64,000 nucleotides of DNA from Catenulispora pinistramenti. Lineage in GTDB: Bacteria; Actinomycetota; Actinomycetes; Streptomycetales; Catenulisporaceae. Location: the NCBI RefSeq assembly GCF_018274385.1, contig NZ_JAAFYZ010000030.1, positions 1-64,000 of the forward strand. Direction: 5' to 3'. Below the pieces are notes generated by a model. The model made no database searches, had not been told where the DNA came from, and saw only the letters and a list, made by a program, of their open reading frames with translations. A program made the translations under genes and the position numbers. Below, piece by piece: positions 3,884 through 50,072 of the stretch; within the stretch, counting starts at the first letter, position 1, and every line of letters begins with the position of its first letter.

Positions 3884-3898
3884 CTGACGGTGGGTCAG
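3884..3898. promoter_or_regulatory. CTGAC-N5-GTCAG operator, acyl-CoA ligase side
   Basis: Perfect palindrome with spacer GGTGG, 21 bp upstream of the ligase start (3862, minus strand). Flanks extend the symmetry (ATCTGAC..GTCAGTT). Member of the family described under the findings. Confidence 0.8.
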
Positions 3899-3978
3899 TT
3901 CTACGCTGTTCTACTGCACGCCGCGATCAGGGGGAAGAGCCGTGCCCCTTGCGGCCGCAATGCCGATCAGTACGATAT

Positions 3979-3993
3979 CTGACGGTGCGTCAG
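3979..3993. promoter_or_regulatory. CTGAC-N5-GTCAG operator, LLM oxidoreductase side
   Basis: Perfect palindrome with spacer GGTGC and extended flanks (TATCTGAC..GTCAGATC), 67 bp upstream of the GTG start at 4061. The 198-bp divergent intergenic region thus holds two sites, one per gene. Confidence 0.8.
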
Positions 3994-4060
3994 ATCGCGG
4001 CTCTGCTCTTGCCCGCGCCCTCCCGCGCTCAATGAACCGACGACGAGCAAGGAGCCCACC

Positions 4061-5179
4061 GTGGAGTTCGGCCTCTTCAACAGCCTCTACGTACCGAAGA
4101 ACCACCCCGGGATAACGGAAGCCTCGCGGCTCCGCGACGAGATCGAGCTGGTCAAGGCCGCCGACCGGGCCGGCTTCAAGTACACCTGGGCCACCGAGCA
4201 CCACTTCCTCGACGAGTACTCGCACCTGTCCGCCAACGAGGCCTTCCTGGGTTACCTGGCCGCCGCCACCGAGCGGATCCACGTCGGCTCCGGCATCTTC
4301 AACATCACCCCGCCGGTCAGCCACCCGGCCCGGGTCGCCGAGAAGGTCGCGGTGCTGGACCACCTGTCCGGCGGCCGGTTCGAGTTCGGCGTCGGGCGCG
4401 GCTCCTCGACCACCGAGACCAAGGGCTTCGGCATCGAGGACTCCGACCTGACCCGGGAGATGGTCGACGAGACGCTGCCGCAGATCGTGCGGATGTGGAA
4501 GGAGACCGACTACTCCTACGACGGCCGCTTCTTCTCGATGCCGCGGCGCAACGTCCTCCCCAAGCCGCTGACCGACCCGCACCCGCCGCTGTGGGTCGCG
4601 GCCGGCTCGCCGGGCACCTTCAAGAAGGCGGCCGAGATGGGCATCGGCGTGCTCTGTTTCGCCCAGGCCTCGATGGACGACCTGGGCAAGCTGATCGCCA
4701 TCTACAAGGAGGAGATCGAGCGCTGCGAGAACCCGGTCGGCGGCTACATCAACAACAACGTCATGGTCACCTCGCAGCTGATGTGCCTGGAGGACGGCCA
4801 GCGGGCGCGCGAGGTGGCAGCGACGATGGGCTCCGGCTACCACCAGAGCCTGCTGTGGAAGTACCTGGACACCTTCCCCCGCCCGCAGTGGGTCAACGAC
4901 CTCGGCGGCACGATCCCGGAGATGGACCGGGCGACCATCGACGCGGTGATCGAGGCCAAGGCGATGTGCATCGGCACCCCGGACGAGGTCTGCGAAGCGG
5001 TCGCGGCGGTCCAGGCGATCGGCGCCGACCAGCTGGTCTTCGGGATGCTGTCGACGGCGATGCCGATCGAGGCGGCGATCGAGTCGGTCCAGACCTTCGG
5101 GCGCGAGGTGCTGCCCCGGTTCGACACCGATCCGGTGCACTCCACGACGCGGCAGCGCGAGGCGCAGTTGGGGAGCTGA
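4061..5179 (+). CDS. LLM-class flavin/F420-dependent oxidoreductase
   Basis: A 372-residue bacterial-luciferase-like (LLM) TIM-barrel protein that would use FMN or F420. The N-terminal half has the family pattern [19 protein letters not shown], a TERIHVGSGI strand and the GGRFEFGVGRG loop. The GTG start is supported by AAGGAG seven bases upstream. It is a close paralogue of the gene at 38985-40112, sharing [11 protein letters not shown] and the [16 protein letters not shown] region, so the pair arose by duplication. It is controlled by the operator at 3979. The stop is 12 bp from the convergent cysteine hydrolase. The exact cofactor and substrate cannot be read; hydroxylation or oxidation of the regulon's substrate is inferred. 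Confidence 0.85.
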   Translation: MEFGLFNSLYVPKNHPGITEASRLRDEIELVKAADRAGFKYTWATEHHFLDEYSHLSANEAFLGYLAAATERIHVGSGIFNITPPVSHPARVAEKVAVLDHLSGGRFEFGVGRGSSTTETKGFGIEDSDLTREMVDETLPQIVRMWKETDYSYDGRFFSMPRRNVLPKPLTDPHPPLWVAAGSPGTFKKAAEMGIGVLCFAQASMDDLGKLIAIYKEEIERCENPVGGYINNNVMVTSQLMCLEDGQRAREVAATMGSGYHQSLLWKYLDTFPRPQWVNDLGGTIPEMDRATIDAVIEAKAMCIGTPDEVCEAVAAVQAIGADQLVFGMLSTAMPIEAAIESVQTFGREVLPRFDTDPVHSTTRQREAQLGS

Positions 5180-5191
5180 GGAGCTGAGATC

Positions 5192-5824
5192 TCACCTGCT
5201 CCAGGCCGCGGCGAGATCGGTGCTGGTCGTCAGCACGGCCAGCACCCTGAGGGTGTTCTCGATCACCGACTCGGCGTAGGCGGCCGGCACCCCGGCCACC
5301 GCGTCGCGCGGCAGGACCACGTCGAAGCCGGCGTTGACCGCGTCCATCACCAGGTTGGTGATGGCGACGTTGACCGAGACGCCGACCGGGATCACCGTGC
5401 GGGTGCCCAGATTGCGCAGGACGGCGGCCAGGCCGGAGTCGTACATGGGACCCAGGCCGTGGTAGCGCGGCAGTTCGAGGTCTGTGTCCAGCAGGCCGAT
5501 CTCGTCGATGACCGCGGCGGCCTTCGAACCGGGCAGCAGGTCTTGGACGTCTTCGCGCCGGGCCGAGCGCAGCGCCGCGGCGAACAGGCCCGCGTTGGTG
5601 TTCGCGCCGCGGGTGTCCGCTCGGCGGTAGACGGTGGCGTGGATCACCGGGACGCCGGCCGCACGGGCGGCGTCCACGACCCGGGCCATAGCCGGGATGT
5701 GCGGACGGGCCACGTCGGCGAGTTGGGGGAACAGCGCGGACGGGCCCAGGACGCCGTTCTGCAGCTCGGAGGTGACCACGGCGCAGCGGGACGGCTCAAG
5801 CATCGCGAACACATCGACCGGCAT
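5192..5824 (-). CDS. isochorismatase-like cysteine hydrolase
   Basis: A 210-residue isochorismatase/nicotinamidase-fold hydrolase. I start at ATG 5824; an upstream extension would run through two operator sites and into the divergent gene. The fold's first strand (CAVVTSELQNGVLG) carries the position of the catalytic acid, but with Glu rather than the usual Asp. The usual catalytic Cys is not evident in VIPVGVSVNVAITNLVMDAVNAGF, where a Ser-Val-Asn replaces the common GVxTxxCV. It may therefore be a non-canonical or inactive member. An operator at 5839 lies 15 bp upstream. Family call is good, activity uncertain. Confidence 0.75.
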   Translation of the reverse strand: MPVDVFAMLEPSRCAVVTSELQNGVLGPSALFPQLADVARPHIPAMARVVDAARAAGVPVIHATVYRRADTRGANTNAGLFAAALRSARREDVQDLLPGSKAAAVIDEIGLLDTDLELPRYHGLGPMYDSGLAAVLRNLGTRTVIPVGVSVNVAITNLVMDAVNAGFDVVLPRDAVAGVPAAYAESVIENTLRVLAVLTTSTDLAAAWSR

Positions 5825-5838
5825 GCCGCGCACAGTAA

Positions 5839-5853
5839 CTGACACGGAGTCAG
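5839..5853. promoter_or_regulatory. CTGAC-N5-GTCAG operator, cysteine hydrolase side
   Basis: Perfect palindrome with spacer ACGGA, 15 bp upstream of the start at 5824 (minus strand), where a bound repressor would block transcription or initiation. Confidence 0.75.
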
Positions 5854-5899: not shown

Positions 5900-5914
5900 C
5901 TGACGGACCGTCAG
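5900..5914. promoter_or_regulatory. CTGAC-N5-GTCAG operator, acyl-CoA dehydrogenase side
   Basis: Perfect palindrome with spacer GGACC, 42 bp upstream of the TTG start at 5956. Second site of the divergent 5825-5955 region; centres are 61 bp apart. Confidence 0.8.
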
Positions 5915-5955: not shown

Positions 5956-7185
5956 TTGCAGCTGCGTGACACACCGGCCCAACAGCGGTTCCGCGAAGAG
6001 CTGCGGGCCTGGCTGCGCGCGGTCCTGCCGACCCTGGACCCGCAGCCGTCGCAGGACGACTGGCCGGCGCGCAGGTCTTACGACTCGCACTGGCAGGCGC
6101 TGCTGCACCAGGCCGGGTACGCCGGGCTGAACTGGCCGGCCGAGTACGGCGGGCGCGGCGCGACCCCGACCGAGCACCTGATCTTCCTGGAGGAGTCCGA
6201 GCTGGCCGGCGCGCCCTACGTCGGGGTGAACTTCGTCGGCCTGCTGCACGCCGGCCCGACGCTGATCGCCGAGGCCGGTCCGGAGCAACGCGAGCGGCAC
6301 ATCCCGGCGATCCTGCGCGGTGATGAGATCTGGTGCCAGGGCTTCTCCGAACCGGACGCCGGCTCGGACCTGGCCGCGCTGCGGACCCGGGCGGTGCTCG
6401 ACGGCGGCGGTGACGACTACGTCGTCAACGGCCGCAAGATCTGGACCTCGCACGCCGAGGTCGCGGACTTCTGCGAACTGCTGGTGCGCACCGGCCCGCC
6501 GGACGGCCCGAAACACCAGGGCATCACCTGGCTGATCATGCCGATGGACGCCCCCGGCCTCACCCTGCGCCCGCTGATGACCGCCGGCGGCTCGACCGAG
6601 TTCTCCGAGATGATCCTGGAGGACGTGCGGATCCCGGTGGCGAACCGGGTCGGCGAAGAAGGCGACGGCTGGCGGATCGCGATGGTGACCTTCGCCTTCG
6701 AACGCGGCACCGGGTTCGTCGCCGAAGTGGTCTGGGCCCGGCGGCGGCTGCTGGAGATCGCCGCGCTGGCCCGGGAGAACGCGACCTGGGAGGACTCTGA
6801 GATCCGCCGCCGGATCGCCCGGCTGGCGGCCGAGTTCGACGCCCTGTGGGCCCTGGTGAAGCGGAACGTCTCAGAGGCCGAGCATTCAGCCGATGGCATC
6901 CCCGGCCCTGGTTCCTCAGTTTTCAAGTTGAGGTTTTCCGAAGCCCGGCAACACCTGGACGATCTGCACGCCGAAGTCCGCGGCCGGGACTCCCTGGCCT
7001 TCGACGACGACCTGTGCACCTACGACGGCGAGCCCGGCTACGAACGTCTCAGGTCCCTGGCATACACCATCGCCGCGGGGACGTCGCAGGTCCAGCGCAA
7101 CATCATCGGCGAGCGGATCCTCGGCCTGCCCAAGGAGCCCAGGGAGCCCTCGGCGTCCGGCGCGGCGAAGGGGGGCGGGCGGTAA
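5956..7185 (+). CDS. acyl-CoA dehydrogenase, first subunit of a tandem pair
   Basis: A 409-residue acyl-CoA dehydrogenase. The TTG start is chosen because AGGAG lies at the right distance (5945-5949) and the family N-terminus begins there. Visible are WPAEYGGRG, the FAD-binding block WCQGFSEPDAGSDLAALRT, the GRKIWTSHA strand and the C-terminal AAGTSQVQRNIIGERILGLP. The residue before GTS is Ala where classical enzymes carry the catalytic Glu (EGT). This Ala is common in long actinobacterial FadE proteins of the sterol type that work as heterotetramers. The next dehydrogenase overlaps by one base (TAATG), so the two are surely co-translated. Oxidation of a bulky acyl-CoA is inferred. Confidence 0.87.
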   Translation: MQLRDTPAQQRFREELRAWLRAVLPTLDPQPSQDDWPARRSYDSHWQALLHQAGYAGLNWPAEYGGRGATPTEHLIFLEESELAGAPYVGVNFVGLLHAGPTLIAEAGPEQRERHIPAILRGDEIWCQGFSEPDAGSDLAALRTRAVLDGGGDDYVVNGRKIWTSHAEVADFCELLVRTGPPDGPKHQGITWLIMPMDAPGLTLRPLMTAGGSTEFSEMILEDVRIPVANRVGEEGDGWRIAMVTFAFERGTGFVAEVVWARRRLLEIAALARENATWEDSEIRRRIARLAAEFDALWALVKRNVSEAEHSADGIPGPGSSVFKLRFSEARQHLDDLHAEVRGRDSLAFDDDLCTYDGEPGYERLRSLAYTIAAGTSQVQRNIIGERILGLPKEPREPSASGAAKGGGR

Positions 7186-8216
7186 TGGACTTCCGACCTA
7201 CACAGGACCAGCTGGCACTGGCCGGCGCGGTGCGCGACGTGCTGGGCAAGCACCCCGCGCCGGGTACTCCCGGCGAGGACGGGCCGGAGCCCGGCGTGGG
7301 CGGCGTGGACGGGGCGCTGTGGCGCGATCTGGCCGAGCTGGGGATCTTCGGCGTGCGGGTACCGGAGGCCGACGGCGGGCTGGGCCTGGGCCACCCCGAA
7401 TCAGTGCACGTTTTCGAGGAGCTGGGCCGCTCGCTGGCCACCGGCCCGTTCACCGCGACCGCGCTGGCCGCGACCCTGCTGCCGGAATACGCGGCCGGCC
7501 GGCACCGGGTCGGGCTGGGCGACCTGACCGGCGGCGCGCCGCAATTGCTGGAACACCTCGACGCCCTGGACGCGCTGCTGGTCGTCGAGATCGTGGACGG
7601 CGAGTCCCCGGGCGCCGCCGGGCGCAGCCAGGTGCTCCGGGTCGAACCGATCGAGCTGCGCGCCGACGCCGTTCCCCACCCTGTGGATCCCCGCGTCCCG
7701 CTGCACCGCCTGCGGCAGAAGCCGCTGCGCGGGGAGATCGTGGGCGATTCCGGGACCGCCGACACGCTGCTGCGCGAGGGCGCCCTGCTCACCGCGGCCT
7801 ACCAGGTCGGCATCGCGGCGGTGCTGACCGAGCGCGCCGTCGCCTACGCCAAGCAGCGCACCCAGTTCGGCCGGGCCATCGGCTCGTTCCAGGCGGTCAA
7901 GCACCTGTGCGCGGACATGTTCGCGCGCGCCGAGCTGGCCCGGGCCGCCGTGCACTCGGCCGCGGTGCTGCTGGCCGACGAGGCGGCCGGACACGACGGC
8001 GCGGACCTGCCGGCCGCGGCGGCCGCGGTGTCGGCGGCCAAGCTGCTCGCCGACGACGCCGCGGTGGCGAACGCGCGGGCGGCGATCCAGGTGCACGGCG
8101 GCATGGGATGCACCTGGGAGATGGGTCTGCACTTCTACCTCAAGCGAGCCTGGGCCCTGTCTCTGGCCTACGGCCGGGCCGCGGACCACGCGGACCTGAT
8201 TTCTGAATCCCTGTAA
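7185..8216 (+). CDS. acyl-CoA dehydrogenase, second subunit of a tandem pair
   Basis: A 343-residue shorter dehydrogenase starting at the ATG that overlaps the preceding stop. The N-terminal helical domain opens MDFRPTQDQLALAGAVRDVL, and ELGIFGVRVPEADGGLGLG follows. The C-terminal domain has AYAKQRTQFGRAIGSFQAVKH, with the FAD-contacting R-x3-F-x7-Q pattern, then IQVHGGMGCTWEMGLHFYLKRA. It is shorter in the middle than a stand-alone enzyme. A long-plus-short pair of neighbouring FadE genes is the arrangement of the alpha2-beta2 dehydrogenases of mycobacterial cholesterol breakdown, which is the basis for inferring a heterotetramer. Confidence 0.85.
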   Translation: MDFRPTQDQLALAGAVRDVLGKHPAPGTPGEDGPEPGVGGVDGALWRDLAELGIFGVRVPEADGGLGLGHPESVHVFEELGRSLATGPFTATALAATLLPEYAAGRHRVGLGDLTGGAPQLLEHLDALDALLVVEIVDGESPGAAGRSQVLRVEPIELRADAVPHPVDPRVPLHRLRQKPLRGEIVGDSGTADTLLREGALLTAAYQVGIAAVLTERAVAYAKQRTQFGRAIGSFQAVKHLCADMFARAELARAAVHSAAVLLADEAAGHDGADLPAAAAAVSAAKLLADDAAVANARAAIQVHGGMGCTWEMGLHFYLKRAWALSLAYGRAADHADLISESL

Positions 8217-8639: not shown

Positions 8640-8783
8640 ATGCGTACCGCACCCGCCCCTCCGCCGGTCGGCGGCGGCGTCCGCCCGAGCGCGCCGTCCG
8701 CCCGACCGTTCGCGGCCGCCGCCGGCCGCCAGCCGGTCCGGCGTACGCGGGACGCCGCGCCCACAGGTGCGCCATGGCGATGA
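8640..8783 (+). CDS. possible small Pro/Ala/Arg-rich leader protein
   Basis: A 47-codon frame starting at ATG 8640 (upstream purines GGGAAAGAG). Its stop overlaps the first ten bases of the MinD-like ATPase gene. The peptide is rich in Ala, Pro and Arg with no recognisable domain. The overlap suggests translational coupling, but codon-level evidence is weak and it could be an untranslated leader. Tentative. Confidence 0.25.
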   Translation: MRTAPAPPPVGGGVRPSAPSARPFAAAAGRQPVRRTRDAAPTGAPWR

Positions 8784-11681: not shown

Positions 11682-11682
11682 C

Positions 11683-14588: not shown

Positions 14589-15524
14589 CTACTTCACCGC
14601 CACCGGAATCACCGGCGCCCCCACCGCGCGCGTGAAGGGCTCCGGCGAAGCCGTCAAGAAGAACTCGTACACGCCATCCGCCGCGCAGTCCTCCGCCAGC
14701 GCCTCCAGGTCCCAGTTCTGCCCCTGCAACATCCCCATCTCCACCAGATGCAGCAGGTGGACCGGCAGCTGCGCGTCGTCGCGCTCGGGCGGGTAGACCT
14801 CGAAGGCCATGGTGTCCGTCGCCACCGCTGCCACGTCGTGGGCGTGGAACCAGGGCACGGTCTGCATCGACGGGCCCGAACACGGATAGTTGTATCCCGG
14901 CTTGTCCCCGGCCTTCAGGGTCGTCATCGCGCCGGTGCGGATCAGCACGATGTCCCCCGGCCGGATCTCCGCCTTCCCGAATTCAGCCGCCGCGTCCAGG
15001 TCCGCGGCCGTCAGCGCGTGCCCGCGCGTCGCGTCGCCCAGTCGCGGGACGCCCAGCGCCCGTGCCACGTCGAGCAGGACCCCGCGGCCGACGATCGGCC
15101 CCGCCTTGTCGATCCCGCAGTGCGCCGCGCCCGCCTCGGTGATCTCCGAGGCGTCGAAGCCGTTGTACAGCCGCCCCTGGTACGACACGTGCGCCAGCGC
15201 GTCCCAGTGCGTCCCGGCCTGGAGTCCCATCTCCACCCGGTCGTCCGAGGTGCGGAAGGCGTGCTCCGGGCCCATCACCTGCGCGTTCACCATGATCATG
15301 GTGCGCTTCGGGTTGTCCCGGCCCTCGATCATGCCGATCTGCGGACCGTCCTCGTCCAGCGGGAGGGCGAGGGTGAAGCGGCGGCCGGTGCGGACCAGGG
15401 ACGCCGCGTGGACCACGCGTTCGGGGGTGATCAGGTTCAGGGTGCCGCGTTCGTCCTCCGGGCCCCAGCGGCCCCAGTTGTTGACGCGGCGGGCGAGGCC
15501 GGTGAACTGCTCCGGTAGCGGCAT
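14589..15524 (-). CDS. cyclase-family (kynurenine-formamidase-like) metal hydrolase
   Basis: A 311-residue member of the Cyclase family (PF04199), metal-dependent hydrolases acting on amide, lactone or ring substrates. The metal-site motif is present as QAGTHWDALAHV, with GDIVLIRTGA and WFHAHDVAAVATDT further on. I start at ATG 15524 because GGGAG precedes it; a GTG nine codons upstream lies inside the operator at 15545. It is divergent from the SDR-ADH operon, each side having its own site. Ring opening or lactone hydrolysis in the catabolic regulon is a plausible inferred role. Confidence 0.8.
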   Translation of the reverse strand: MPLPEQFTGLARRVNNWGRWGPEDERGTLNLITPERVVHAASLVRTGRRFTLALPLDEDGPQIGMIEGRDNPKRTMIMVNAQVMGPEHAFRTSDDRVEMGLQAGTHWDALAHVSYQGRLYNGFDASEITEAGAAHCGIDKAGPIVGRGVLLDVARALGVPRLGDATRGHALTAADLDAAAEFGKAEIRPGDIVLIRTGAMTTLKAGDKPGYNYPCSGPSMQTVPWFHAHDVAAVATDTMAFEVYPPERDDAQLPVHLLHLVEMGMLQGQNWDLEALAEDCAADGVYEFFLTASPEPFTRAVGAPVIPVAVK

Positions 15525-15544: not shown

Positions 15545-15559
15545 CTGACACAGCGTCAG
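15545..15559. promoter_or_regulatory. CTGAC-N5-GTCAG operator, cyclase side
   Basis: Perfect palindrome with spacer ACAGC and flanks ATATCTGAC..GTCAGTTG, 21 bp upstream of the cyclase ATG at 15524 (minus strand). Confidence 0.8.
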
Positions 15560-15588: not shown

Positions 15589-15603
15589 CTAACATGCCGT
15601 CAG
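15589..15603. promoter_or_regulatory. CTGAC-type operator with one mismatch, SDR side
   Basis: CTAAC-ATGCC-GTCAG, one change from the palindrome, 61 bp before the SDR GTG at 15664. The spacer ATGCC is identical to that of the site over the TetR start codon. Confidence 0.65.
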
Positions 15604-15663: not shown

Positions 15664-16581
15664 GTGGCCGACTTCCTGGCAGGCAAGGTCATCGTGGTGA
15701 CCGGCGCGGGGCGGGGCATCGGGCGCGCCGTGGCCCTGGGCTGCGCCGCCGAGGGCGCCTCCGTGGTGGTCAACGACTACGGCGTCTCGGTCGACGGCAG
15801 CGCGCCGTCCAGCGAGGTCGCCGAGGCGGTGGCGCAGGAGATCCGGGACGCCGGCGGGCAGGCGGTGCCGTGCCCGGACTCCGTCACGACGTTGGCCGGC
15901 GGGCAGCGCATCGTGCAGACCGCCCTGGACACCTACGGCCGGGTGGACGGCGTGGTGTGCGTGGCCGGGATCCTGCGCGAGCGGATGCTGTTCAACATGG
16001 CCGAGGATGAGTGGGACCCGGTCATCGAGACGCATCTGAAGGGCACGTTCACCCTGTTCCGCGCGGCCAGCGCGGTGATGCGCAAGGCCGGCGGCGGCGC
16101 GCTGATCGGCTTCACCTCCGGCAACCACGCCGGCAGCGTCTCGCAGGCCAACTACAGCGCGGCCAAGGGCGGCATCGTGAGCCTGGTCCACAGCGCCGCG
16201 CTGGGCCTGGGCAAGTACGGCATCACCGCGAACGCCGTGGCCCCGGTCGCGCGCACCCGGATGAGCGCCAACGTCCCGTTCGACATGGCCGAGATGGGCG
16301 AGCCGGAGGACGTCGCACCGCTGGTCGCCTACCTGCTGTCGGAGGCCGCGCGGGACGTCACCGGCCAGATCTACACCGTGGCCGGCCGCCGGATCGCGGT
16401 GTGGAACCAGCCGCAGGAGATCCGCTCGATGTACGGCGAGGAGCCGTGGACCGCCGAGTCGATCGCGAAGCGGCTGCCGGAGGCGGTCGGCGTCGAGACC
16501 ATGCCGATGATCGCGAAGCTGGCCGCGTACGCGAAGGCGACCGAGGAACGGAAGACGCAGGAAGAGGGGCCGCGGTCATGA
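15664..16581 (+). CDS. short-chain dehydrogenase/reductase (SDR)
   Basis: A 305-residue classical SDR with a C-terminal extension of about 50 residues. The cofactor motif is TGAGRGIG (residues 13-20) and the catalytic Tyr-Lys lies in YSAAK near residue 164. I choose GTG 15664 (AGGAG about ten bases upstream) over a TTG 17 codons earlier, because the SDR fold begins right after it. ATGA overlap with the alcohol dehydrogenase shows one operon. Its length and extension resemble SDRs linked to fatty-acid or sterol breakdown (for example 3-hydroxyacyl-CoA dehydrogenation). The substrate is inferred only from context. Confidence 0.83.
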   Translation: MADFLAGKVIVVTGAGRGIGRAVALGCAAEGASVVVNDYGVSVDGSAPSSEVAEAVAQEIRDAGGQAVPCPDSVTTLAGGQRIVQTALDTYGRVDGVVCVAGILRERMLFNMAEDEWDPVIETHLKGTFTLFRAASAVMRKAGGGALIGFTSGNHAGSVSQANYSAAKGGIVSLVHSAALGLGKYGITANAVAPVARTRMSANVPFDMAEMGEPEDVAPLVAYLLSEAARDVTGQIYTVAGRRIAVWNQPQEIRSMYGEEPWTAESIAKRLPEAVGVETMPMIAKLAAYAKATEERKTQEEGPRS

Positions 16582-17657
16582 GGGCCGCGGTCTTCGAGGG
16601 CGGCAAGCTGGAAGTCGTCGACGGGATAGAGGTACGCGGCCCCCGCTCCGACGAGATCGTGGTCCGCATCGGCGCGGCCGGTCTGTGTCACTCCGACCTG
16701 AGCGTCGTCAACGGCACCATCCCGTTCCCGGGCCCGGCGGTGCTCGGCCACGAGGGCGCCGGCGTCGTGGAGGAGATCGGCGCGGCGGTGACCCGGGTCA
16801 AGGCCGGCGACCACGTCTGCCTGACCACGATCAACAACTGCGGCGTCTGCCCGGCGTGCAGCGCGGGCCGTCCGACGATGTGCCGCGGCACGTTCGGCAA
16901 GATCAGCAAGCCGTTCACCCGCGAGGCCGCCGACGGCTCGACCGAGAAGCTGTTCTCCTTCGCCAACACCTCGGTGTTCACCGAACGCGTGGTGATCAAG
17001 GAAGTACAGGCCGTGCCGATTCCGGAGGACGTGCCGATGGCCTCGGCCGCGCTGGTCGGCTGCGGCGTGCTGACCGGCGTCGGCGCGGTGCTGAACCGGG
17101 CGAAGGTGCGGATCGGCGAGACGGTCGTGGTGATCGGCGTCGGCGGCATCGGGCTGAACGCGATCCAGGGGGCGCGGATCGCCAGGGCCGGCCGGATCAT
17201 CGCCGTGGACACCAACCCGCGCAAGGAAGAGGCGGCCCGGCAGTTCGGCGCCACCGACTTCCTCGACCCGAGCGGCCAGGACCTGGTCCAACTGATCAAG
17301 GACCTGCTCCCGCACGGCGCCGACTACGTCTTCGAGTGCGTCGGCCACCCCGCGCTGATCCGGGCCGCGACCGACCTGCTGGCCTGGTCCGGGACCGCGG
17401 TACTGCTCGGCGTGCCGCGCAGCGACGCCGAGGGGACGTTCCTCGTTTCCGGAATGTATATGGACAAAACGATAATGGGCTGCCGGTACGGAACCTCGCA
17501 CCCGCAGTTCGACGTCGAAAGGTACGTGGACCTCTATCGGAAGGGCGAGCTACTCCTGGACGAACTGGTCACAAAGACCTACCCTCTGGAGCACATCCAC
17601 GAGGCGATCCACGACCTGGAAAGCGGGTCATTGGCAAGAGGAGTCCTCTTGCTCTGA
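16578..17657 (+). CDS. zinc-dependent alcohol dehydrogenase (MDR family)
   Basis: A 359-residue medium-chain dehydrogenase. Catalytic zinc ligands are Cys37 and the GHEGAG His58. The structural zinc lobe shows four cysteines at 88, 91, 94 and 102. The Rossmann motif VIGVGGIGLNAIQG follows near residue 190. The overall pattern matches actinobacterial NDMA-dependent (tightly bound NAD) alcohol dehydrogenases, though that cofactor habit cannot be proved here. It overlaps the SDR stop by four bases and shares its operator-controlled promoter. It probably interconverts an alcohol and an aldehyde or ketone in the same pathway. Confidence 0.85.
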   Translation: MRAAVFEGGKLEVVDGIEVRGPRSDEIVVRIGAAGLCHSDLSVVNGTIPFPGPAVLGHEGAGVVEEIGAAVTRVKAGDHVCLTTINNCGVCPACSAGRPTMCRGTFGKISKPFTREAADGSTEKLFSFANTSVFTERVVIKEVQAVPIPEDVPMASAALVGCGVLTGVGAVLNRAKVRIGETVVVIGVGGIGLNAIQGARIARAGRIIAVDTNPRKEEAARQFGATDFLDPSGQDLVQLIKDLLPHGADYVFECVGHPALIRAATDLLAWSGTAVLLGVPRSDAEGTFLVSGMYMDKTIMGCRYGTSHPQFDVERYVDLYRKGELLLDELVTKTYPLEHIHEAIHDLESGSLARGVLLL

Positions 17658-19862: not shown

Positions 19863-20420
19863 TCAGCCGAACGCCCCCTTGTGGAAGATCAACGGGTTCG
19901 ACTCGCCGTCCGCGTCGAGCGCGTGCACCCGGCCGATCACGATCGTGTGGTCGCCGCCGGGATGGGTGGCCTCGATCGTGCAGTCCACCCAGCCGTGCGC
20001 ACCGGCCAGGATCGGCGAACCCAGCCCCGAGCGCTGCCAGTCGACGCCGGCGAACTTGTCGCCGCCGCTGACCGCGAAGGCGCGGCACAGCTCCGCGTGG
20101 TCGGCCGCCAGGAAGTTCACACAGAAGCGGCCCGTGGCCTCGATCCGCGGCCACGTGGTGGACGTGAGGCCGACCGAGAACAGCACCAGCGGTGGATCCA
20201 GGGACAGCGCGGAGAACGCCTGGCAGGCGAAGCCCACGGGCCCGTCAGCGTCCTCGGACGCGACGACGGTCACGCCGGAGGGGAAATGGCCCAGGACGCG
20301 GCGGTAGTGCGCGGCGTCGATGGTCGCGCCGTCGGCGGCGTTCGCGGCGGGCCCGGCGGCGGTGCCGCCGTTCTCGGCGACGCGGCCGGCACGCTCGCGT
20401 GCGGTGGCCTGTGCAGGCAT
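19863..20420 (-). CDS. flavin reductase-like FMN-binding protein
   Basis: A 185-residue flavin reductase of the HpaC/HsaB type, which supplies reduced FMN/FAD to a two-component monooxygenase. The split-barrel pattern is clear: FPSGVTVVAS, FACQAFSALSLDPPLVLFSVG, RFCVNFLAADH and a C-terminal acidic-His region. The first 35 residues are a low-complexity tail. The one-mismatch operator at 20539 is about 120 bp upstream. It is the natural redox partner for a flavin-dependent LLM monooxygenase such as that at 4061 or 38985. This pairing is inferred. Confidence 0.82.
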   Translation of the reverse strand: MPAQATARERAGRVAENGGTAAGPAANAADGATIDAAHYRRVLGHFPSGVTVVASEDADGPVGFACQAFSALSLDPPLVLFSVGLTSTTWPRIEATGRFCVNFLAADHAELCRAFAVSGGDKFAGVDWQRSGLGSPILAGAHGWVDCTIEATHPGGDHTIVIGRVHALDADGESNPLIFHKGAFG

Positions 20421-20538: not shown

Positions 20539-20553
20539 CTGACGACCCGTCAA
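20539..20553. promoter_or_regulatory. CTGAC-type operator with one mismatch, flavin reductase
   Basis: CTGAC-GACCC-GTCAA, one mismatch, in the gap between the enoyl-CoA hydratase stop (20593) and the flavin reductase start (20420). Confidence 0.55.
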
Positions 20554-23212: not shown

Positions 23213-23227
23213 CTGACGAGGTGTCAG
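23213..23227. promoter_or_regulatory. CTGAC-N5-GTCAG operator, ATP-grasp ligase operon
   Basis: Perfect palindrome with spacer GAGGT and flanks AACCTGAC..GTCAGTTTA, 36 bp upstream of the ATG at 23177. A further CTGAC half-site lies beside it at 23200-23204. Confidence 0.8.
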
Positions 23228-24835: not shown

Positions 24836-24850
24836 CTGACTTGGGGTCAG
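24836..24850. promoter_or_regulatory. CTGAC-N5-GTCAG operator, acyl-CoA synthetase
   Basis: Perfect palindrome with spacer TTGGG and flanks GATCTGAC..GTCAGAGTT, 30 bp upstream of the ATG at 24806 (minus strand). Confidence 0.8.
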
Positions 24851-25585: not shown

Positions 25586-25593
25586 GCCGTCAG
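25579..25593. promoter_or_regulatory. CTGAC-type operator over the TetR start codon
   Basis: CTGTC-ATGCC-GTCAG, one mismatch, spanning the ATG of the TetR gene (25583-25585 on the plus strand). The position suggests autorepression. Confidence 0.6.
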
Positions 25594-28743: not shown

Positions 28744-28759
28744 CGTGGACCCCACTTCT

Positions 28760-29944: not shown

Positions 29945-30014
29945 ATATCTCCCTATCATGGGCCCCGGCGCGGTGCCAGAGCCAACTTCCCCCAGGGCGA
30001 GAGGTCCGGCGAAG

Positions 30015-38984: not shown

Positions 38985-40112
38985 TTACTTACCCAGCGCC
39001 GCCGCGGCGCTGCGGAACCGCGTGGTCCGGTGCACCGGATCCTTGTCCAGCTTGGGAATCACGTACCGGCCGATCAGCTCGATCGTCTCCAGCGTGTCGG
39101 CCAGGGAGAGCTGGATCGGCAGGCCGAACACCAGCTGGTCGATTCCCGTTGCCTCGTAGCGCTTGATCTGGGCCAGCACCTCGTCGGGGTCGCCGCAGAT
39201 CAGGTAGCCGTTGTGCAGCCGCCACTCGACCTCCTCGACGGTCGGCTCGGGCAGCACCCCGGGCCACTCCGGGACCCAGTCCGGGCGCGGGAACGTGTCG
39301 TGGTAGCGGAACACCAGGGACTGGAGCCGTCCCATCCCCATCGCCGCGGCGGCCTGCCGGGCCCGCTTGCCGTCGGCCAGGCACACCGCCGAGGACGTGA
39401 CCATGACGTTGTCATTGACATATGCCCCGACCGGCTCGGCCGAGGGCACCGCCTTCTTGTACGCCGCGACGGCGGCCTCGGCGTCGGCGGCCGAACCCAC
39501 CGAGAAGCCCAGCACGCCCAGGCCCATCCGCGCGGCCATCTCGTACGACGGCGGGTTCCCGGCCGCGTACCACATCGCCGGATGCGGCTTCTTCCACGGC
39601 TTGGGCAGCACGTTGCGCTCCGGCATCGAGAACCACTTGCCCTCGTGCGAATACGAGTCCTGCAACCACATCTTGGGGATCTCGCGCACCACCTCGGCCC
39701 AGATCTCCTTGGTGATCGCGGTGTCCGGCAGACCCAGGCCCAGGATCTCCCGCGAACCGGCGCCGCGGCCGGTCCCGAACTCGAACCGGCCGCCGGTCAA
39801 GTGGTCCAGGGTCGCGACCTTCTCGGCCACCTTCACCGGGTGGTTGGCCTGCGGCAGCGGGTTGAAGATGCCCGAGCCCAGGTGGATCCGCTCGGTCGCG
39901 GCGGCCAGATAGCCCAGGAAGACGTCGTTGCTGGCCAGGTGCGAGTACTCGTCGAGGAAGTGGTGCTCGGAAGCCCACAGGTACTTGAAGCCGGCCCGGT
40001 CGGCGGCCTTGGCGATCTCGATGTCGTTCATGAGCGAGGTGTGCTCGAAATCGGGGTCGGCGGCCAGCTTCGAGAGCGGTACGTGGCCCTGGACGAAGAT
40101 GCCGAACTCCAT
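38985..40112 (-). CDS. LLM-class flavin/F420-dependent oxidoreductase
   Basis: A 375-residue LLM protein and a clear paralogue of the gene at 4061-5179: both carry [34 protein letters not shown] and a similar C-terminal [21 protein letters not shown] stands in front of the ATG. It lies 56 bp upstream of the F420-dependent oxidoreductase and 25 bp downstream of the SDR stop, within the fbiC operon. Members of this branch can be FMN monooxygenases or F420 dehydrogenases; operon context with fbiC favours F420. Confidence 0.85.
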
Positions 40113-40120
40113 GGAGTCTC

Positions 40121-40154
40121 CTAGCCGAAGTGGATGCCTAGCCGAAGTGGATGC
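40121..40154. repeat. 17-bp perfect tandem duplication at the SDR stop
   Basis: CTAGCCGAAGTGGATGC occurs at 40121-40137 and again at 40138-40154. The second copy (minus strand) encodes the last residues and stop of the SDR. The first copy repeats them beyond the stop, just before the RBS of the LLM gene. A recent slippage duplication is likely. Confidence 0.9.
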
Positions 40155-40890
40155 CGGCCAGCGCCCCGCCGTCGAGGACGAAGTCGGCGCCGGTGCAGTA
40201 GGACGAGTCGTCGGAGGTCAGGAACAGCGCGGCTTTCGCGATCTCGAGCGGGGTACCGACGCGCTTGAGCGGAATGCCGGAGTAGCCGATGTCGGGGTCG
40301 GCGTCCTCGGGCATGAACTCGGTGACCATCGGGGTGTGGACGCCGCCGGGGCAGATGCAGTTCACCCGCACAGTCGGCCCGGCCTCCAGAGCCGCGACCC
40401 TCGTCAATCCCCTGACAGCGAACTTGGTGGACACATAAGACCCCAGATATGCCATCCCCGCGAAGCCGTCGACGCTCGCGGTGTTCACCACCGTCCCGCC
40501 GCCGGCCGCCCGGATCCGGGGCAGGCACACGTGCAGCCCCAGGAAGACGCCGACCTGGTTCACGGTCACCACCTGCATGTACTCCTCGAGCGAGGTCTTC
40601 TCGATCTTGTTGAAGCGCAGGATGCCGGCGTTGTTGATCAGGCCGTCGAGCTTGCCGAACTCGGCCGTGGCGAAGTCCGCGGCGGCGGTCCACTGCGCCT
40701 GGTCGGTGACGTCGAGCCGGACGAACCGCGCCGCGTCGCCGATCTCCTTGGCCACCGCCTGCCCAGCCTCCTCCAGCACATCGGCGAGCACCACCCGCGC
40801 CCCCTCCTCGGCGAACAGCCGCGCCTCCTCGGCACCCTGACCCCGCGCCGCGCCGGTGACCAGCACCACCCGCCCGTCCAACTTTCCCAT
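40138..40890 (-). CDS. short-chain dehydrogenase/reductase (SDR)
   Basis: A 250-residue classical SDR: TGAARGQG (residues 12-19), NNAGI, and YVSTK as Tyr-Lys motif. The GQG variant in place of GIG is common in 3-alpha/20-beta-hydroxysteroid-dehydrogenase-like SDRs, which is suggestive only. Start ATG 40890 (AGGGGACGG upstream) is preferred over long upstream extensions that cross the operator. It is the first gene of the likely SDR-LLM-LLM-fbiC operon. The operator at 40924 lies 34 bp upstream and is also shared with the divergent LLM at 40979. Confidence 0.85.
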   Translation of the reverse strand: MGKLDGRVVLVTGAARGQGAEEARLFAEEGARVVLADVLEEAGQAVAKEIGDAARFVRLDVTDQAQWTAAADFATAEFGKLDGLINNAGILRFNKIEKTSLEEYMQVVTVNQVGVFLGLHVCLPRIRAAGGGTVVNTASVDGFAGMAYLGSYVSTKFAVRGLTRVAALEAGPTVRVNCICPGGVHTPMVTEFMPEDADPDIGYSGIPLKRVGTPLEIAKAALFLTSDDSSYCTGADFVLDGGALAGIHFG

Positions 40891-40923: not shown

Positions 40924-40938
40924 CTGACTAGGTGTCAG
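40924..40938. promoter_or_regulatory. CTGAC-N5-GTCAG operator at the head of the fbiC operon
   Basis: Perfect palindrome with spacer TAGGT and flanks CATCTGAC..GTCAGATTG. It lies 34 bp before the SDR start (minus) and 41 bp before the LLM start (plus), serving both divergent units. Confidence 0.85.
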
Positions 40939-40978
40939 ATTGATTCCTCCCAGGCGAAAAGTGAAGGGGAGACGGCCC

Positions 40979-41869
40979 ATGAAGTTCTGGCTCTCACCGG
41001 CGTTCTGCGACACCGCACACTTCACCGGCCTCGCGCGGGCCGCGGAAGAGCACGGGTTCGAAGGGATCGCCATCCCGGACCACCTGTTCCATCCGGTCGA
41101 ACTGTCCTCCCCCTACCCCTATACGCCAGACGGATCCCGCTACTGGACGAAAGACACCCACTGGCCCGAGCCCTGGGTGGCGATCGCGGCAATGGCAGCG
41201 GTAACGACCCGCCTGCACTTCACCACCAACATCTACGTGGCCCCGGCCCGCGACCTGCTGACGGTCGCCAACCAAGTAGCGACCGCCGCCTACATCTCAC
41301 AGGGCACACCAACCGGCCACCACCGGATCGCACTCGGCGTCGGCCCAGGCTGGAGCCGAGACGAATTCACCGCCACCGGCCAAGCCTGGCCCAAACGCGG
41401 AGCCCGCCTCGACGAGATGCTGCTGGCCCTGCGCCAACTGTGGACCGGGGACGTAGTCGAGGTGGCGGGCCCGAACTACACCCTCCCGGCCTGCTCGATC
41501 ACCCCGACGCCGAACGCCCCGATCCCGGTCTACGTCGGCGGCGTCTCCGACATAGCGCTCCGCCGCGCAGCCCGCAACGACGGCTGGATCGGGATCTACC
41601 ACACGGTCGACGAAACCCGGTCGATCATGGACCGGATCCGCGCGGCCCGCGAGGAGGCCGGCACCGTGGACCGGCCGTTCCGGGCGATGCTCGCGGTACT
41701 GGCGGAACCAACGCCAGAGCTATGTGCGCAGCTGGAGGAGTGGGGCGTCACAGACTTGCTGGGCGCACCGTGGATGTCGAACATCAAGGCCATGACGGCC
41801 CCGGGACCGTCACTGGACGAGATGGTCGAGGCGGTGGCCCGGTATGCCGAGCGCTATGTGAAGAACTAG
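40979..41869 (+). CDS. F420-dependent LLM-class oxidoreductase
   Basis: A 296-residue LLM protein. Start ATG 40979 follows GGGGAG and fits the family better than the upstream ATG 40940. Motifs: FEGIAIPDHLFHP, LHFTTNIYVAPARD, GHHRIALGVGPGWSRDEF and PVYVGGVSDIALRRAARNDGWIG, the typical pattern of F420-using subclass members. Divergent from the SDR/fbiC operon with a shared operator. No enzymatic substrate can be read. A strong hairpin follows its stop. Confidence 0.85.
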   Translation: MKFWLSPAFCDTAHFTGLARAAEEHGFEGIAIPDHLFHPVELSSPYPYTPDGSRYWTKDTHWPEPWVAIAAMAAVTTRLHFTTNIYVAPARDLLTVANQVATAAYISQGTPTGHHRIALGVGPGWSRDEFTATGQAWPKRGARLDEMLLALRQLWTGDVVEVAGPNYTLPACSITPTPNAPIPVYVGGVSDIALRRAARNDGWIGIYHTVDETRSIMDRIRAAREEAGTVDRPFRAMLAVLAEPTPELCAQLEEWGVTDLLGAPWMSNIKAMTAPGPSLDEMVEAVARYAERYVKN

Positions 41870-45056: not shown

Positions 45057-45842
45057 TCACCGCAAGTAGTCGCCGGCGTTGACCGCGAGTGACTGACCAG
45101 TGATTCCACCGGCATAGGGCGACACCATGTAAACGGCCGCATTCGCAACGTCACCGTCGCTGGCGATCTCCGGCAACGCCGTGCGAGCGGTGAGTGAGGA
45201 GATCACCTGCTCCTCCGGAATGCTTTGTGACGAAGCAGTCCACGCCACATACCCCTGCACCATCGGCCCCCACATCCACGACGGCACGACGGCGTTCACC
45301 CGGATCCGCCGCGGCCCCAGCTCCTTGGCCATGCCATAGGTCGCGGACAGGAGCGCGCCCTTGGAGGCGGCGTAGGCGGCCTGCATGACCTCCGTCGCCG
45401 GCACCCACATCGACTGCGACAGGATGTGGACGATGCCCGTGGCCACCCCGGACTCCCGCGCCAGATGCGGGATCGCGGCCTTGCTGAGCTGCAGGGTGCC
45501 GACGACGTTGACCTCGTAGACGGCGCGCCAGTCGGCGAAGTCGGCGTCGCTGACGCCCCCGAAGACCTGGTCCATCGCCGCGACGTTGACCAACCCGTCC
45601 AGCGCGCCGAAGCGTTCGACCGCGAGGTCGACCAACCGCCGGCAGGCGTCCTCGGAGGTGATGTCGGTCGGCGCGTAGGCGACCCGCGCGGCGTCGAAGT
45701 CGGCGGCCGCCTTGACCAGGTTCGCCTCGGTCCGCGCCCCCAGCACCACGTTCGCGCCCTGGCCGTACGCGGCCTGCGCGACCTCCCGGCCGAGGCCTTC
45801 GCCGACCCCTGACACGATCACCGTCTTGCCTTCGAGCAACAT
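45057..45842 (-). CDS. short-chain dehydrogenase/reductase (SDR)
   Basis: A 261-residue SDR. The cofactor motif is SGVGEGLG (Ser replaces the usual Thr) and the catalytic YAASK is intact. Its neighbours are envelope and GntR genes, but the one-mismatch CTGAC-type operator at 45899 lies 57 bp upstream, which ties it to the catabolic regulon. Substrate unknown. Confidence 0.82.
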   Translation of the reverse strand: MLLEGKTVIVSGVGEGLGREVAQAAYGQGANVVLGARTEANLVKAAADFDAARVAYAPTDITSEDACRRLVDLAVERFGALDGLVNVAAMDQVFGGVSDADFADWRAVYEVNVVGTLQLSKAAIPHLARESGVATGIVHILSQSMWVPATEVMQAAYAASKGALLSATYGMAKELGPRRIRVNAVVPSWMWGPMVQGYVAWTASSQSIPEEQVISSLTARTALPEIASDGDVANAAVYMVSPYAGGITGQSLAVNAGDYLR

Positions 45843-45898: not shown

Positions 45899-45913
45899 CT
45901 GATGGTGCGTCAG
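45899..45913. promoter_or_regulatory. CTGAC-type operator with one mismatch, SDR at 45057
   Basis: CTGAT-GGTGC-GTCAG. The spacer GGTGC and right flank (GTCAGAT) are identical to the perfect site at 3979, supporting it as real. Confidence 0.65.
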
Positions 45914-47577: not shown

Positions 47578-47593
47578 GCCGCGACAGCGGGCG

Positions 47594-49927
47594 CTACTGC
47601 GGATACCGCAGCGGTGACACGTCGAGTTGCCGTCGGTAGCGGGCGGCTTCGGCCGGGGGCAGGTCGTCGAAAACCGCCAGGGCCCGGCGGTGGGACTCCT
47701 GCGCCTCCGGGATGCGTCCCTCGGCGTGCCGAATTCGGGCGATGCCGTTGAGACTGTCGGCGTGCAGGTAGCGGTTGCCCAGGTCGCGTGCCATGGTCAC
47801 CGACTCTTCGAAGGCGGTGACGGCTTCGGCGTAGCGTTCCAGGACGGAGTAGGTGAAACCCAGGTTGTGCAGGCCCATCGCGACGTACATCGCGTCGTCC
47901 TCGGCGCGGGCCGCGTCGATGGAGGAGATGACGTGGGTCAGCGCCTCGGCCGGCCGACCCAGGTTGTGGAAACAGATGGCCACCGTGTTGAACACGTTGA
48001 AGCTGCGTTGGGCGAGGCGCACTTCGTCGCGGTCCCGTAGCGCCAGGGCCTGGAGGGCGACCTCCAAGCCTCGTTCGTGATCCCCGACCCCGGTGTACGC
48101 CATGGCCAGACAGTTCAGCACCTGTTGTCCGGTCACCAAGTCGTCGTACTCGCTGGTCAGGGCCAGGGCTTCTTCCAACGGGGCGATCGCCTCGTCGGAT
48201 CTGTTGTCCGACCAGAGGGTGAACCCCAACCGTTGCAGCACCTGTGCCTCGGCCCCGGGGACGCCGCACCGCCGGGCGTGGGGCAGGGCGGCGCGAAGCA
48301 GTCGCTCGGACTCCCGCCAGTTCCGGGCGACGTCCTCGATCCGGATCATGCCCAGCGTCAGCAGGACGACCACCCGGTCGTGGGCGGACGCCGCCGCCGC
48401 CGAGAGGATCCGCAGCAGGTTCGGCCGTTCCCGGTCGTACCAGGCGATCGCCTGTCTGCTGTCACGGAACCGCATGCCGTGGCCTCGCGGTTCGGCGGCG
48501 GGGAAGGGCAGCGGCTGGCTCAGGTTCACCGTCCGGCCCGCCGCCAACATGGCCGCCACGTACCAGGTGAAGACGGCGGTGACGGCCTCGGAGCGCTCCT
48601 GCTCGCTGAGCTCCGCCGCGGCCCGTTCGGCCGCGTAGACGCACAGCAGGTCGTGCAACTCGTAACGGTCCGGGACCTTCTGCTGGACCAGCCGCTCGTC
48701 CTGCAACGACTCCAGGATCCGCTCGGCCTCGCCGCGGTCCACCCCGGCCAGCGCGGTGACCGAGACCGCGGTGAAGTCCAGCGCGGGATGGACGCCGAGC
48801 AGCCGGAAGACCCGTTGCGCGGCCGCGGGCAGGCCCTGATACGACAGGTCGAAGACCCGGGCCAGCCCCCGGCTGCCCGCCGCGATCTCGTTCAGCCCCT
48901 TGCCCAGCCGGTCGGCCAGATAGCGCAGGGTCCACACCGGACGGGAGCGCAGCCGCGCCGCCACCAGCGAGACCGCCAGCGGCAGACCGCCGCACAGCTC
49001 CGCGAGCCGTTCGGCCGCCTCCGGTTCGGCGCCCACCCGCTCGCCGCCCACAACGCGGGCCAGCAACTCGACCGCCTCCCCCGGGTCGAGCACGTCGAGG
49101 ATCACCGAGCGCGCCCCCTCCAACGCGGCCAGGCTGCGGCGGCTGGTGATCAGCACCAGGCAGGTCGGGGACGCCGGCAGCAGCGGTCGGACCTGGTCGA
49201 CGTCCGCGGCGTTGTCGAGCAGGAGCAACGCCTGGCGGCCGTGGACGCGGTCGCGGAACATCGCGGCCCGCTCGTCCAGCCCGGCCGGGACGTGCGCGGC
49301 CGACACCTCCAGCTGACGCAGGAACGCGTCGAGGATGGCGGCCGGATCGGACGGTTCGTGGTCCGGGTCGAAGCCACGCAGGTTGGCGTAGAGCTGGACG
49401 TCGGCATACCGCCCGGCCTGCACGAGACTGTGCGCCGCGTGCAGGGCGAGCTGGGTCTTGCCGATACCGGCCATACCCTCGACCGCCGAGATCACGACGG
49501 TGTCCGAGTCCTGATCGGCGCCCGCGGTCAACGCGGCGAGCTCCTTCTCCCGCCCGATGAACGTGGCCAGGTCGACAGGCAGCTGCCGCAGCACCGCGGT
49601 CGGCCCCACGGCCTTGGAATCGCGGTGCACCCGCAGGTAAGCCGCACGCCAACGACGCACCGTCGCCTCGTCCGCGCCGAGCGCGCGCACGATGGCGATC
49701 ACCAGATCCAGATCAAGGCGCCGCCGCCGGGTCTGGAACACCTCGGCGACCGTGGTGTGCGAAACCGCACGCGGCGGCCGCAGCAACGGCCCCACCCGCT
49801 TGGCCAGACTCCGGACGGACGGCGAACCGGCCCACAGGCGCAACTGGTTCAGGTGCTCGATGTAACCGGCCAGGTCGACGGCCGCTTCCGGATCAGGCCT
49901 GCCGCCCGGGTCAGCGCTCCCCGACAT
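47594..49927 (-). CDS. NB-ARC (STAND) ATPase regulator with TPR repeats
   Basis: A 777-residue AfsR/SARP-like STAND protein without the SARP DNA-binding part. The N-terminal 110 residues are a helix-turn-helix-like region (SVRSLAKRVGPLLRPPRAVSHTTVAEVF). NB-ARC has Walker A GMAGIGKTQ (151-159), Walker B ALLLLDNAAD and GLPLA. TPR repeats fill the last 280 residues. Such proteins act as ATP-dependent signal switches, often regulating secondary metabolism; the target is not visible. No regulon site lies at its promoter. Confidence 0.8.
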   Translation of the reverse strand: MSGSADPGGRPDPEAAVDLAGYIEHLNQLRLWAGSPSVRSLAKRVGPLLRPPRAVSHTTVAEVFQTRRRRLDLDLVIAIVRALGADEATVRRWRAAYLRVHRDSKAVGPTAVLRQLPVDLATFIGREKELAALTAGADQDSDTVVISAVEGMAGIGKTQLALHAAHSLVQAGRYADVQLYANLRGFDPDHEPSDPAAILDAFLRQLEVSAAHVPAGLDERAAMFRDRVHGRQALLLLDNAADVDQVRPLLPASPTCLVLITSRRSLAALEGARSVILDVLDPGEAVELLARVVGGERVGAEPEAAERLAELCGGLPLAVSLVAARLRSRPVWTLRYLADRLGKGLNEIAAGSRGLARVFDLSYQGLPAAAQRVFRLLGVHPALDFTAVSVTALAGVDRGEAERILESLQDERLVQQKVPDRYELHDLLCVYAAERAAAELSEQERSEAVTAVFTWYVAAMLAAGRTVNLSQPLPFPAAEPRGHGMRFRDSRQAIAWYDRERPNLLRILSAAAASAHDRVVVLLTLGMIRIEDVARNWRESERLLRAALPHARRCGVPGAEAQVLQRLGFTLWSDNRSDEAIAPLEEALALTSEYDDLVTGQQVLNCLAMAYTGVGDHERGLEVALQALALRDRDEVRLAQRSFNVFNTVAICFHNLGRPAEALTHVISSIDAARAEDDAMYVAMGLHNLGFTYSVLERYAEAVTAFEESVTMARDLGNRYLHADSLNGIARIRHAEGRIPEAQESHRRALAVFDDLPPAEAARYRRQLDVSPLRYPQ

Positions 49928-50057
49928 CGCGCCCTCCCCCTCCGATTCCGGGCATGGAGTCTAACAAACGGGTGGTGAGCGGAGTCAGGGTTTATTGACG
50001 CACATGCTGGAGGGATCAGGCCGGTGACGCCGGCCGGGTATCCCCCCTTCGCGAAAT

Positions 50058-50072
50058 CTGACGTATCGTCAG
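50058..50072. promoter_or_regulatory. CTGAC-N5-GTCAG operator, EthD-like gene
   Basis: Perfect palindrome with spacer GTATC and left flank AAATCTGAC, 30 bp before the ATG at 50103. It is the most distal member of the family in the window. Confidence 0.8.

Follow-up and report, generated by a model that had tools for sequence, protein, structure and literature searches.

A stretch of 64,000 nt from Catenulispora pinistramenti (contig NZ_JAAFYZ010000030.1 of assembly GCF_018274385.1), called the window hereafter, carries dispersed copies of the palindrome CTGAC-N5-GTCAG next to genes for acyl-CoA-type and related enzymes, and our analysis makes it very likely that these sites are the operators of the TetR-family regulator encoded in the same stretch at 24932-25585, which would thereby control a set of catabolic operons. 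The word catabolic is suggested by the enzyme families concerned. This large gene set, common to many Streptomyces-type bacteria and very probably under TetR control, is so far undescribed; among the literature matches listed, which cover open-licence papers only, we found no report of the operator motif or its half-sites.

An earlier note, made from the letters of the window, had pointed out ten perfect copies of the palindrome, and all ten coordinates are borne out. Dinucleotide-preserving shuffles of the window contain 0.16 copies on average and 2 at the most, thus the set is indeed far from chance; the earlier estimate was 0.06 copies. When the spacer was varied from 0 to 12, copies were obtained solely at N5 (10) and N11 (1), so that only the length of five is enriched, as had been proposed, and CTGAC is the most frequent of the 99 five-base arms that are palindromic around a 5-base spacer (10 occurrences, the runner-up having 6). 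The AT flanks noticed earlier are found at most half-sites, with A at -2 in 18/20 and T at -1 in 13/20, and the fuller operator is a 19-bp palindrome, ATCTGAC-N5-GTCAGAT, with 14 fixed bases. The spacer sequence is variable in the window, as described. Read inward from each arm, it starts with G in 46 of 62 half-sites of the Streptomyces-type clusters and in 25 of 28 half-sites of family f16. As for the one-mismatch sites, there are seven in the window (15589, 20539, 25579, 28310, 31914, 45899 and 46378): the five listed before, together with 31914 and 46378, which had been missed. Since 2.83 sites with zero or one mismatch are expected by chance, part of the one-mismatch sites must be noise.

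The placement of the sites was determined with a codon-usage gene caller trained on 24 window stretches, which misplaced the starts of the TetR and thiolase genes, made one false in-gene call (at C533, see below) and treats a site as lying outside a gene even when it reaches as much as 60 bp into the gene's end. By these calls all ten perfect sites are intergenic, in agreement with the earlier note, the intergenic share of the window being 9.6%; seven lie between divergent genes, three lie upstream of a gene in tandem and none is convergent. Measured from the centre of each site, the nearest start is 13-78 bp away, which upholds the closeness claimed before and replaces its upper bound of 71 bp. 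Of the one-mismatch sites, three (15589, 20539, 45899) are intergenic, three (28310, 31914, 46378) are within genes, and the one at 25579 overlaps the start codon of the TetR gene. The sites and the genes beside them are as follows, where LLM stands for luciferase-like monooxygenase and SDR for short-chain dehydrogenase/reductase.

3884..3898, perfect operator, proximal to the ligase gene 2324-3862
3979..3993, perfect operator, proximal to the LLM gene 4061-5179
5839..5853, perfect operator, proximal to the isochorismatase-family gene
5900..5914, perfect operator, proximal to the acyl-CoA dehydrogenase gene
15545..15559, perfect operator, proximal to the cyclase-family gene
15589..15603, operator with one mismatch, proximal to the SDR gene; a one-mismatch site stands at the same place in G003, G042 and G014
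20539..20553, one-mismatch site, upstream of the flavin reductase
23213..23227, perfect operator, upstream of the ATP-grasp acyl-CoA ligase
24836..24850, perfect operator, upstream of the AMP-forming ligase 23298-24806
25579..25593, putative autoregulatory operator with one mismatch, over the TetR start codon
29930..29944, perfect operator, between the divergent Ltp2-like aldolase and FadD3-family ligase genes
40924..40938, perfect operator, between divergent SDR and LLM genes
45899..45913, operator with one mismatch, upstream of the SDR 45057-45842; same site in G003
50058..50072, perfect operator, upstream of a 283-aa protein without Pfam match

The site at 20539 has a perfect counterpart before the flavin reductase orthologue in G042, G047 and G014; no AT-flanked site within one mismatch is among those listed for G003.

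The regulator itself (24932..25585, minus strand, 217 aa), our proposed repressor, matches PF00440 (9e-6, 25.8 bits, cut-off 24) and PF19352 TetR_C_38 (8e-63), and is identical to the TetR of Catenulispora pinisilvae NH11. It has a single match in 59 of 60 genomes, the own genome included, and each of the 45 genomes analysed from the Streptomyces-type genus has it. The stretch T-S-x-A-T-F-Y-Q-Y-F, invariant across 14 aligned orthologues, is taken for its DNA-reading helix. Plasmid records matching the protein number 27, all below 60% identity, and in the one region read no catabolic genes are annotated nearby.

One tie between this regulator and the palindrome is the site at its own start. The arrangement CTGAC-NNN-ATG-ACAG, a site with one mismatch, lies over the TetR start codon in 30/30 close orthologue loci, and on the minus strand of the window a TAAACT shares its last two bases with CTGACGGC-ATG-ACAG. 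For the loci L053-L081 (n=29, with L082, 38% identical over 68 residues, left out) the start operator was found with one mismatch in 12, with two mismatches in 3 and not at all in 14; L053-L057 are the same loci as L024, L026, L030, L031 and L032, and the only additional ones, L058-L067, all have it with one or two mismatches (10/10). Six of the nine genomes of family f2 that lack the catabolic cluster were searched as well, and five keep the start operator, as CTGACNNNATGACAG, each time at the TetR start. The more remote Streptomyces relatives of the TetR (L076-L081) have in common a different sequence, GTGATTGAACGTCGG or close to it, some 100 bp upstream of the match.

A hexamer TANNNT at this spacing from a start codon is the -10 position of a leaderless transcript. 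In 40/40 loci (the 30 close ones and L058-L067, all of them related), TA stands at -12/-11 of the TetR ATG and forms TANNNT, where the final T is given by the search pattern and the independent fact is therefore TA alone; the overall frequency of TA in the 30 close loci is 1.1%. Judged by this signature, the TetR promoter is probably leaderless.

We then consider the co-occurrence of regulator and operators across genomes. The perfect core is found 26-92 times in each of ten relatives, and it is frequent even in G012, which has no strict sites; counting of the bare core was for this reason rejected in favour of the AT-flanked form WWCTGACN5GTCAGWW, the strict site. Among 196 genomes of the class, 23 of the 40 with this TetR, the only regulator covered by the test, have 3 or more strict sites vs 0 of the 156 without it, and after removal of family f2, the own genome and family f15 the figures are 5/16 vs 0/156. 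The genomes are related and the counts are not independent, therefore the p-values of such comparisons overstate. A cleaner test than the pooled counts is the contrast inside family f16, with 10, 10, 4, 10 and 6 strict sites in the genomes having the TetR vs 0, 0 and 1 in those lacking it. The strict sites also go with the Ltp2-like aldolase of the cluster: among 28 chosen genomes (the own genome G000, 18 genomes of f2, G003, G012, G042, G047, G049, G052 and the small G034, G039 and G040), 3-11 strict sites were counted in the 18 with an Ltp2 orthologue and 0-2 in the 10 without. As regards G012, it has no Ltp2 orthologue, and no one of its perfect cores is AT-flanked.

The cluster is conserved together with its sites. 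In G003, each of the ten perfect window sites is matched by a perfect one at the orthologue of the gene concerned, with agreement at 43 of 50 spacer bases and 218 of 320 outer flank bases. Agreement of the arms follows from the pairing itself, which was made between perfect sites. In G014, G042 and G047 the TetR gene lies within a run of window-gene orthologues preceded by perfect sites, 10, 10 and 7 of them in 55, 60 and 40 kb, respectively, and parts of the cluster were found in the stretches examined of G052 and G049. Taking the window, G003, G042, G047, G014 and G052 together, 51/51 perfect sites precede one gene or more (33 lie between divergent genes and 18 in tandem, with none convergent and none deep in genes). 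At another locus, which encodes an Ltp2-like paralogue (48-50%), G014 and G042 have an upstream strict site, and the own genome has a site with one mismatch. More remotely, the TetR gene of Actinomadura L059 is followed by an ATP-grasp ligase and an amidohydrolase, with one-mismatch sites; in Nocardia L072, a perfect site stands some 300 bp upstream of an amidohydrolase that shares 65% identity with one of the G014 cluster; Acidimicrobiales L069 has a perfect site before an acyl-CoA-dehydrogenase-like gene. In family f16, large catabolic clusters contain 9 perfect sites in G090, 8 of which precede genes, and 5 in G146, all of which do; the G146 cluster includes P450, nitronate monooxygenase and branched-chain-type transporter genes. 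The Streptomyces-type genus (g4 of family f2) we infer from sequence comparison to be Streptomyces: of the 18 plasmid records closest at the DNA level to L104, a cluster of this genus, 16 are from Streptomyces, so are 93 of 100 records among the plasmid matches of the AfsR-like protein discussed below, and the named Streptomyces loci L063-L067 have the TetR orthologue with the same start operator. With the start-codon site, the co-occurrence and this conserved context, the earlier proposal of the TetR at 24932-25585 as the regulator is well supported at the sequence level.

Elsewhere in the own genome (11.46 Mb in 671 contigs) the picture depends on the form of the motif. Of its 33 perfect cores, 10 are those of the window; the other 23 comprise 10 in genes (9 after the correction at C533), 2 convergent, 9 tandem and 2 divergent, some of the tandem and divergent ones being far from any start. 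The number expected by chance is uncertain, about 28 by the scaled shuffle rate of the window and 1 by a reversed-pattern control. As the outside cores are often in genes or convergent, the core alone is mostly background. The genome-wide check proposed in the earlier note is better made with the near-consensus set, namely the 8 places elsewhere in the genome that depart from the fixed bases of ATCTGAC-N5-GTCAGAT by one mismatch or none; 5 of them precede genes for lipid or CoA-type enzymes. The eight places are the following.

C657, 21 bp before an enoyl-CoA hydratase gene
C196, 32 bp before a P450 gene
C37, before DUF35 and thiolase genes
C333, before a KASIII-like gene
C650, about 100 bp before an acyl-CoA dehydrogenase gene, with a MobA-like gene on the opposite side
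C647, 25 bp before the gene of a 126-aa protein without Pfam match
C533, before an AfsR-like activator gene
C72, inside a gene

In addition, the gene of a branched-chain-type binding protein at C335 is preceded by a perfect core whose flanks are weaker.

Several results weigh against the TetR as the reader of all these sites. Enzyme genes follow no more than the said 5 of 8 near-consensus sites; the genomes behind the co-occurrence counts are related and do not represent independent events; 17 of the 40 genomes with the TetR have fewer than 3 strict sites, and G012, which belongs to the same family as the own genome, combines the TetR and 92 perfect cores with 0 strict sites. At the TetR start, the 14 remoter relatives (L068-L081) have no such site, and the final T of TANNNT is fixed by the pattern searched; the leaderless signature is met at 0 of 94 site sides of the perfect operators.

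The palindrome might instead be read by another regulator, for example another TetR or the GntR at 46036-46422, with the TetR gene merely one of the targets. The self-operator and the co-occurrence are indirect, and a site kept before the TetR gene in five of six cluster-less genomes would fit any regulator of that gene. Against this, counts of 3 or more strict sites were confined to genomes having this very TetR, within f16 as well as in the whole set of 196, and in the Streptomyces-type genus, Actinomadura, Nocardia and f16 its gene lies among the sites or next to them, which leaves the other-regulator explanation highly unlikely. That the palindromes are transcription terminators or RNA hairpins has next to no probability for the window: in it and the five other genomes named above, all 51 perfect sites are upstream of genes and none is convergent, and at the TetR start one arm would be upstream of the inferred transcription start. 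This explanation draws on G127, a 5.1-Mb actinomycete of family f15 having the TetR and 80 strict sites, many at gene ends: of 22 distinct sites classified, 8 are tandem and 6 convergent, while 5 lie in genes and 3 between divergent genes, and in this genome the palindrome may serve as a terminator-like element or a repeat.

A steroid regulon like that of KstR or KstR2 deserves a closer comparison, as the window has a FadD3-family ligase, a PRK07856 SDR, an Ltp2/DUF35 pair and an HsaB-like reductase. KstR of mycobacteria is a TetR repressor of lipid and cholesterol genes, and as described (PMC1995591) it resembles the present system in being autoregulated, in having one palindrome before many lipid or CoA genes and over its own -10, and in the conservation of this motif across genera. 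Its operator, given there as TnnAACnnGTTnnA, is unlike ATCTGAC-N5-GTCAGAT, therefore the regulon is not that of KstR. The gene set is another one too, and HsaA, the sole steroid-ring marker searched in the whole genome, stays under the cut-off of 450 with 310.5 bits for the best of 7 matches. With KstR2, whose effector is HIP-CoA (PMC5380842), the window shares the FadD3-family ligase, located behind the operator 29930, the PRK07856 SDR and probably an acyl-CoA ligand. Apparent differences are that no CoA transferase, IpdAB being the one concerned, is among the 50 window open reading frames scanned with Pfam (some of them not genes), and that the TetR is not recognisably KstR2, the KstR2 operator being outside the comparison; none of the 23 PDB sequence matches of the TetR is named KstR or KstR2, and EthR comes first (3e-6). 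Moreover, 55 of 57 Streptomyces genomes were reported to be without known steroid pathways (PMC4810484), while an Ltp2 orthologue is present in 16 of 25 genomes of the Streptomyces-type genus. A steroid regulon is accordingly unlikely, and by analogy the present one is a KstR-like TetR regulon with another operator.

From the computational results we infer how the TetR at 24932-25585 would act. A dimer would read ATCTGAC-N5-GTCAGAT within about 80 bp of start codons and repress the catabolic operons, and one operator per promoter would account for the paired sites in the wider divergent regions. Autorepression would take place through the operator across the -10 and the start codon of a probably leaderless promoter, where bound repressor would cover about -8 to +7. 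The inducer releasing the TetR may be a pathway intermediate, most likely an acyl-CoA from a regulated ligase. The presumably regulated genes, which Pfam and NCBIfam assign largely to the ligases, dehydrogenases, hydrolases, thiolase-like, SDR and LLM proteins of the earlier note, are listed below with their neighbours.

2324..3862, minus strand, AMP-forming acyl-CoA ligase, cyclohexanecarboxylate-CoA-ligase-like, under the curated cut-off
4061..5179, plus strand, LLM
5192..5833, minus strand, isochorismatase-family hydrolase
5956..7185, plus strand, acyl-CoA dehydrogenase, pimeloyl-CoA-dehydrogenase-like, under cut-off
7185..8216, plus strand, second acyl-CoA-dehydrogenase-like protein, best window match of L105:1973-3193 (acyl-CoA dehydrogenase by Pfam)
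14589..15524, minus strand, cyclase-family hydrolase, PF04199
15613..16581, plus strand, SDR oxidoreductase
16578..17657, plus strand, zinc alcohol dehydrogenase
19863..20420, minus strand, HsaB-like flavin reductase, 203.5 bits, cut-off 230
20593..21402, minus strand, enoyl-CoA hydratase/isomerase
21516..23177, minus strand, ATP-grasp/CoA-binding acyl-CoA ligase
23298..24806, minus strand, AMP-forming acyl-CoA ligase
25668..26438, minus strand, SDR, PRK07856 family, above cut-off
27519..28328, minus strand, enoyl-CoA hydratase family
28321..28755, minus strand, DUF35/ChsH2-type zinc-ribbon/OB protein, likely aldolase partner
28760..29917, minus strand, Ltp2-like thiolase-fold protein, PRK07855 above cut-off; PDB 6ok1, E 5e-97
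29958..31553, plus strand, FadD3-family acyl-CoA ligase, NF005801, 809 bits, cut-off 657
38985..40112, minus strand, LLM monooxygenase
40138..40890, minus strand, SDR oxidoreductase
40940..41869, plus strand, F420-type LLM, TIGR03619 above cut-off
45057..45842, minus strand, SDR oxidoreductase, PRK07890 above cut-off
50103..50954, plus strand, conserved protein of 283 aa, no Pfam match

These genes would form a peripheral pathway for a lipophilic cyclic acid, in the order of CoA ligation, acyl-CoA dehydrogenation, hydration and aldol cleavage by Ltp2/DUF35, the PRK07855 thiolase-like protein and the adjoining zf/OB ChsH2-type protein being a predicted aldolase; LLM and flavin reductase, cyclase and amidohydrolases would serve for ring oxygenation or opening. 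Our guess for the substrate is a cyclic terpenoid or alicyclic acid. The amidohydrolase of the G014 cluster that resembles the Nocardia one is closest in the PDB to DitZ and PtmU3, names known from diterpenoid work, which hints weakly at a terpenoid; no paper with the word DitZ is among the literature matches listed (open-licence papers). In G139, a one-mismatch operator stands between an LLM gene and the divergent gene of a homologue (58%) of the 50103..50954 protein. A radical-SAM/CofH protein (FbiC-like) stands beside an F420-type LLM gene (35483-38062 and 38092-38928), and homologues of it and of the neighbouring LLM are near the cluster in G052. The genes at 8774-14475, which include a type II/IV secretion ATPase (T2SSE, 9612-11681), are operator-free ones inside the cluster and apparently unrelated to catabolism.

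The surroundings of the regulator suggest a further connection. In G014 a kinase with a PQQ propeller adjoins the TetR, and farther on a 1005-aa SARP/NB-ARC/TPR protein is encoded (by Pfam); the same pair is near the TetR in G042 and G047, by position and similarity, and in Streptomyces sp. ST2-7A (L063), by similarity. We take the two proteins to have the architectures of AfsK and AfsR. In the own genome, the strict operator C533:43816-43834 (L165) is about 40 bp before the gene of a 1093-aa BTAD/NB-ARC/TPR protein, 41% identical to the AfsR-like protein of G014, and a strict site likewise precedes an AfsR-like relative in G003 (G003:C1:6174468-6174486). At L165 a TAAGCT hexamer was read by eye 6 bases before the GTG start of the AfsR-like gene. 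An NB-ARC/TPR protein at 47594-49927, adjoining the operator 50058, is AfsR-related without SARP domain match, with 30-31% identity to the AfsR-like protein of the cluster.

Of S. coelicolor it has been reported that SCO4421, a TetR gene close to afsK, is expressed in sporulation, has an unclear function and shows no mutant phenotype, and the passages concerned name no operator, regulon or substrate for it (PMC3878966). Because cluster and operators lie around AfsK- and AfsR-like genes in the Streptomyces-type genus, our TetR, with its orthologues near the kinase and the SARP/NB-ARC/TPR protein, is probably of the SCO4421 type, as judged from gene order rather than sequence. The afsK/afsR region of Streptomyces would lie amid the regulon, and the TetR persists together with its self-operator where the catabolic cluster is missing. 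It is a tentative idea that one catabolite-sensing TetR ties the breakdown of cyclic lipid-like compounds to AfsK/AfsR and sporulation, and in Catenulispora directly controls an AfsR-type activator. The lack of a phenotype for SCO4421 could mean that the target cluster is missing in S. coelicolor, as gene numbers would suggest. The present analysis gives an operator and a list of targets for a regulator probably known only as SCO4421, and marks a presumed catabolic cluster of about 50 kb in which AfsK- and AfsR-like regulators are embedded.

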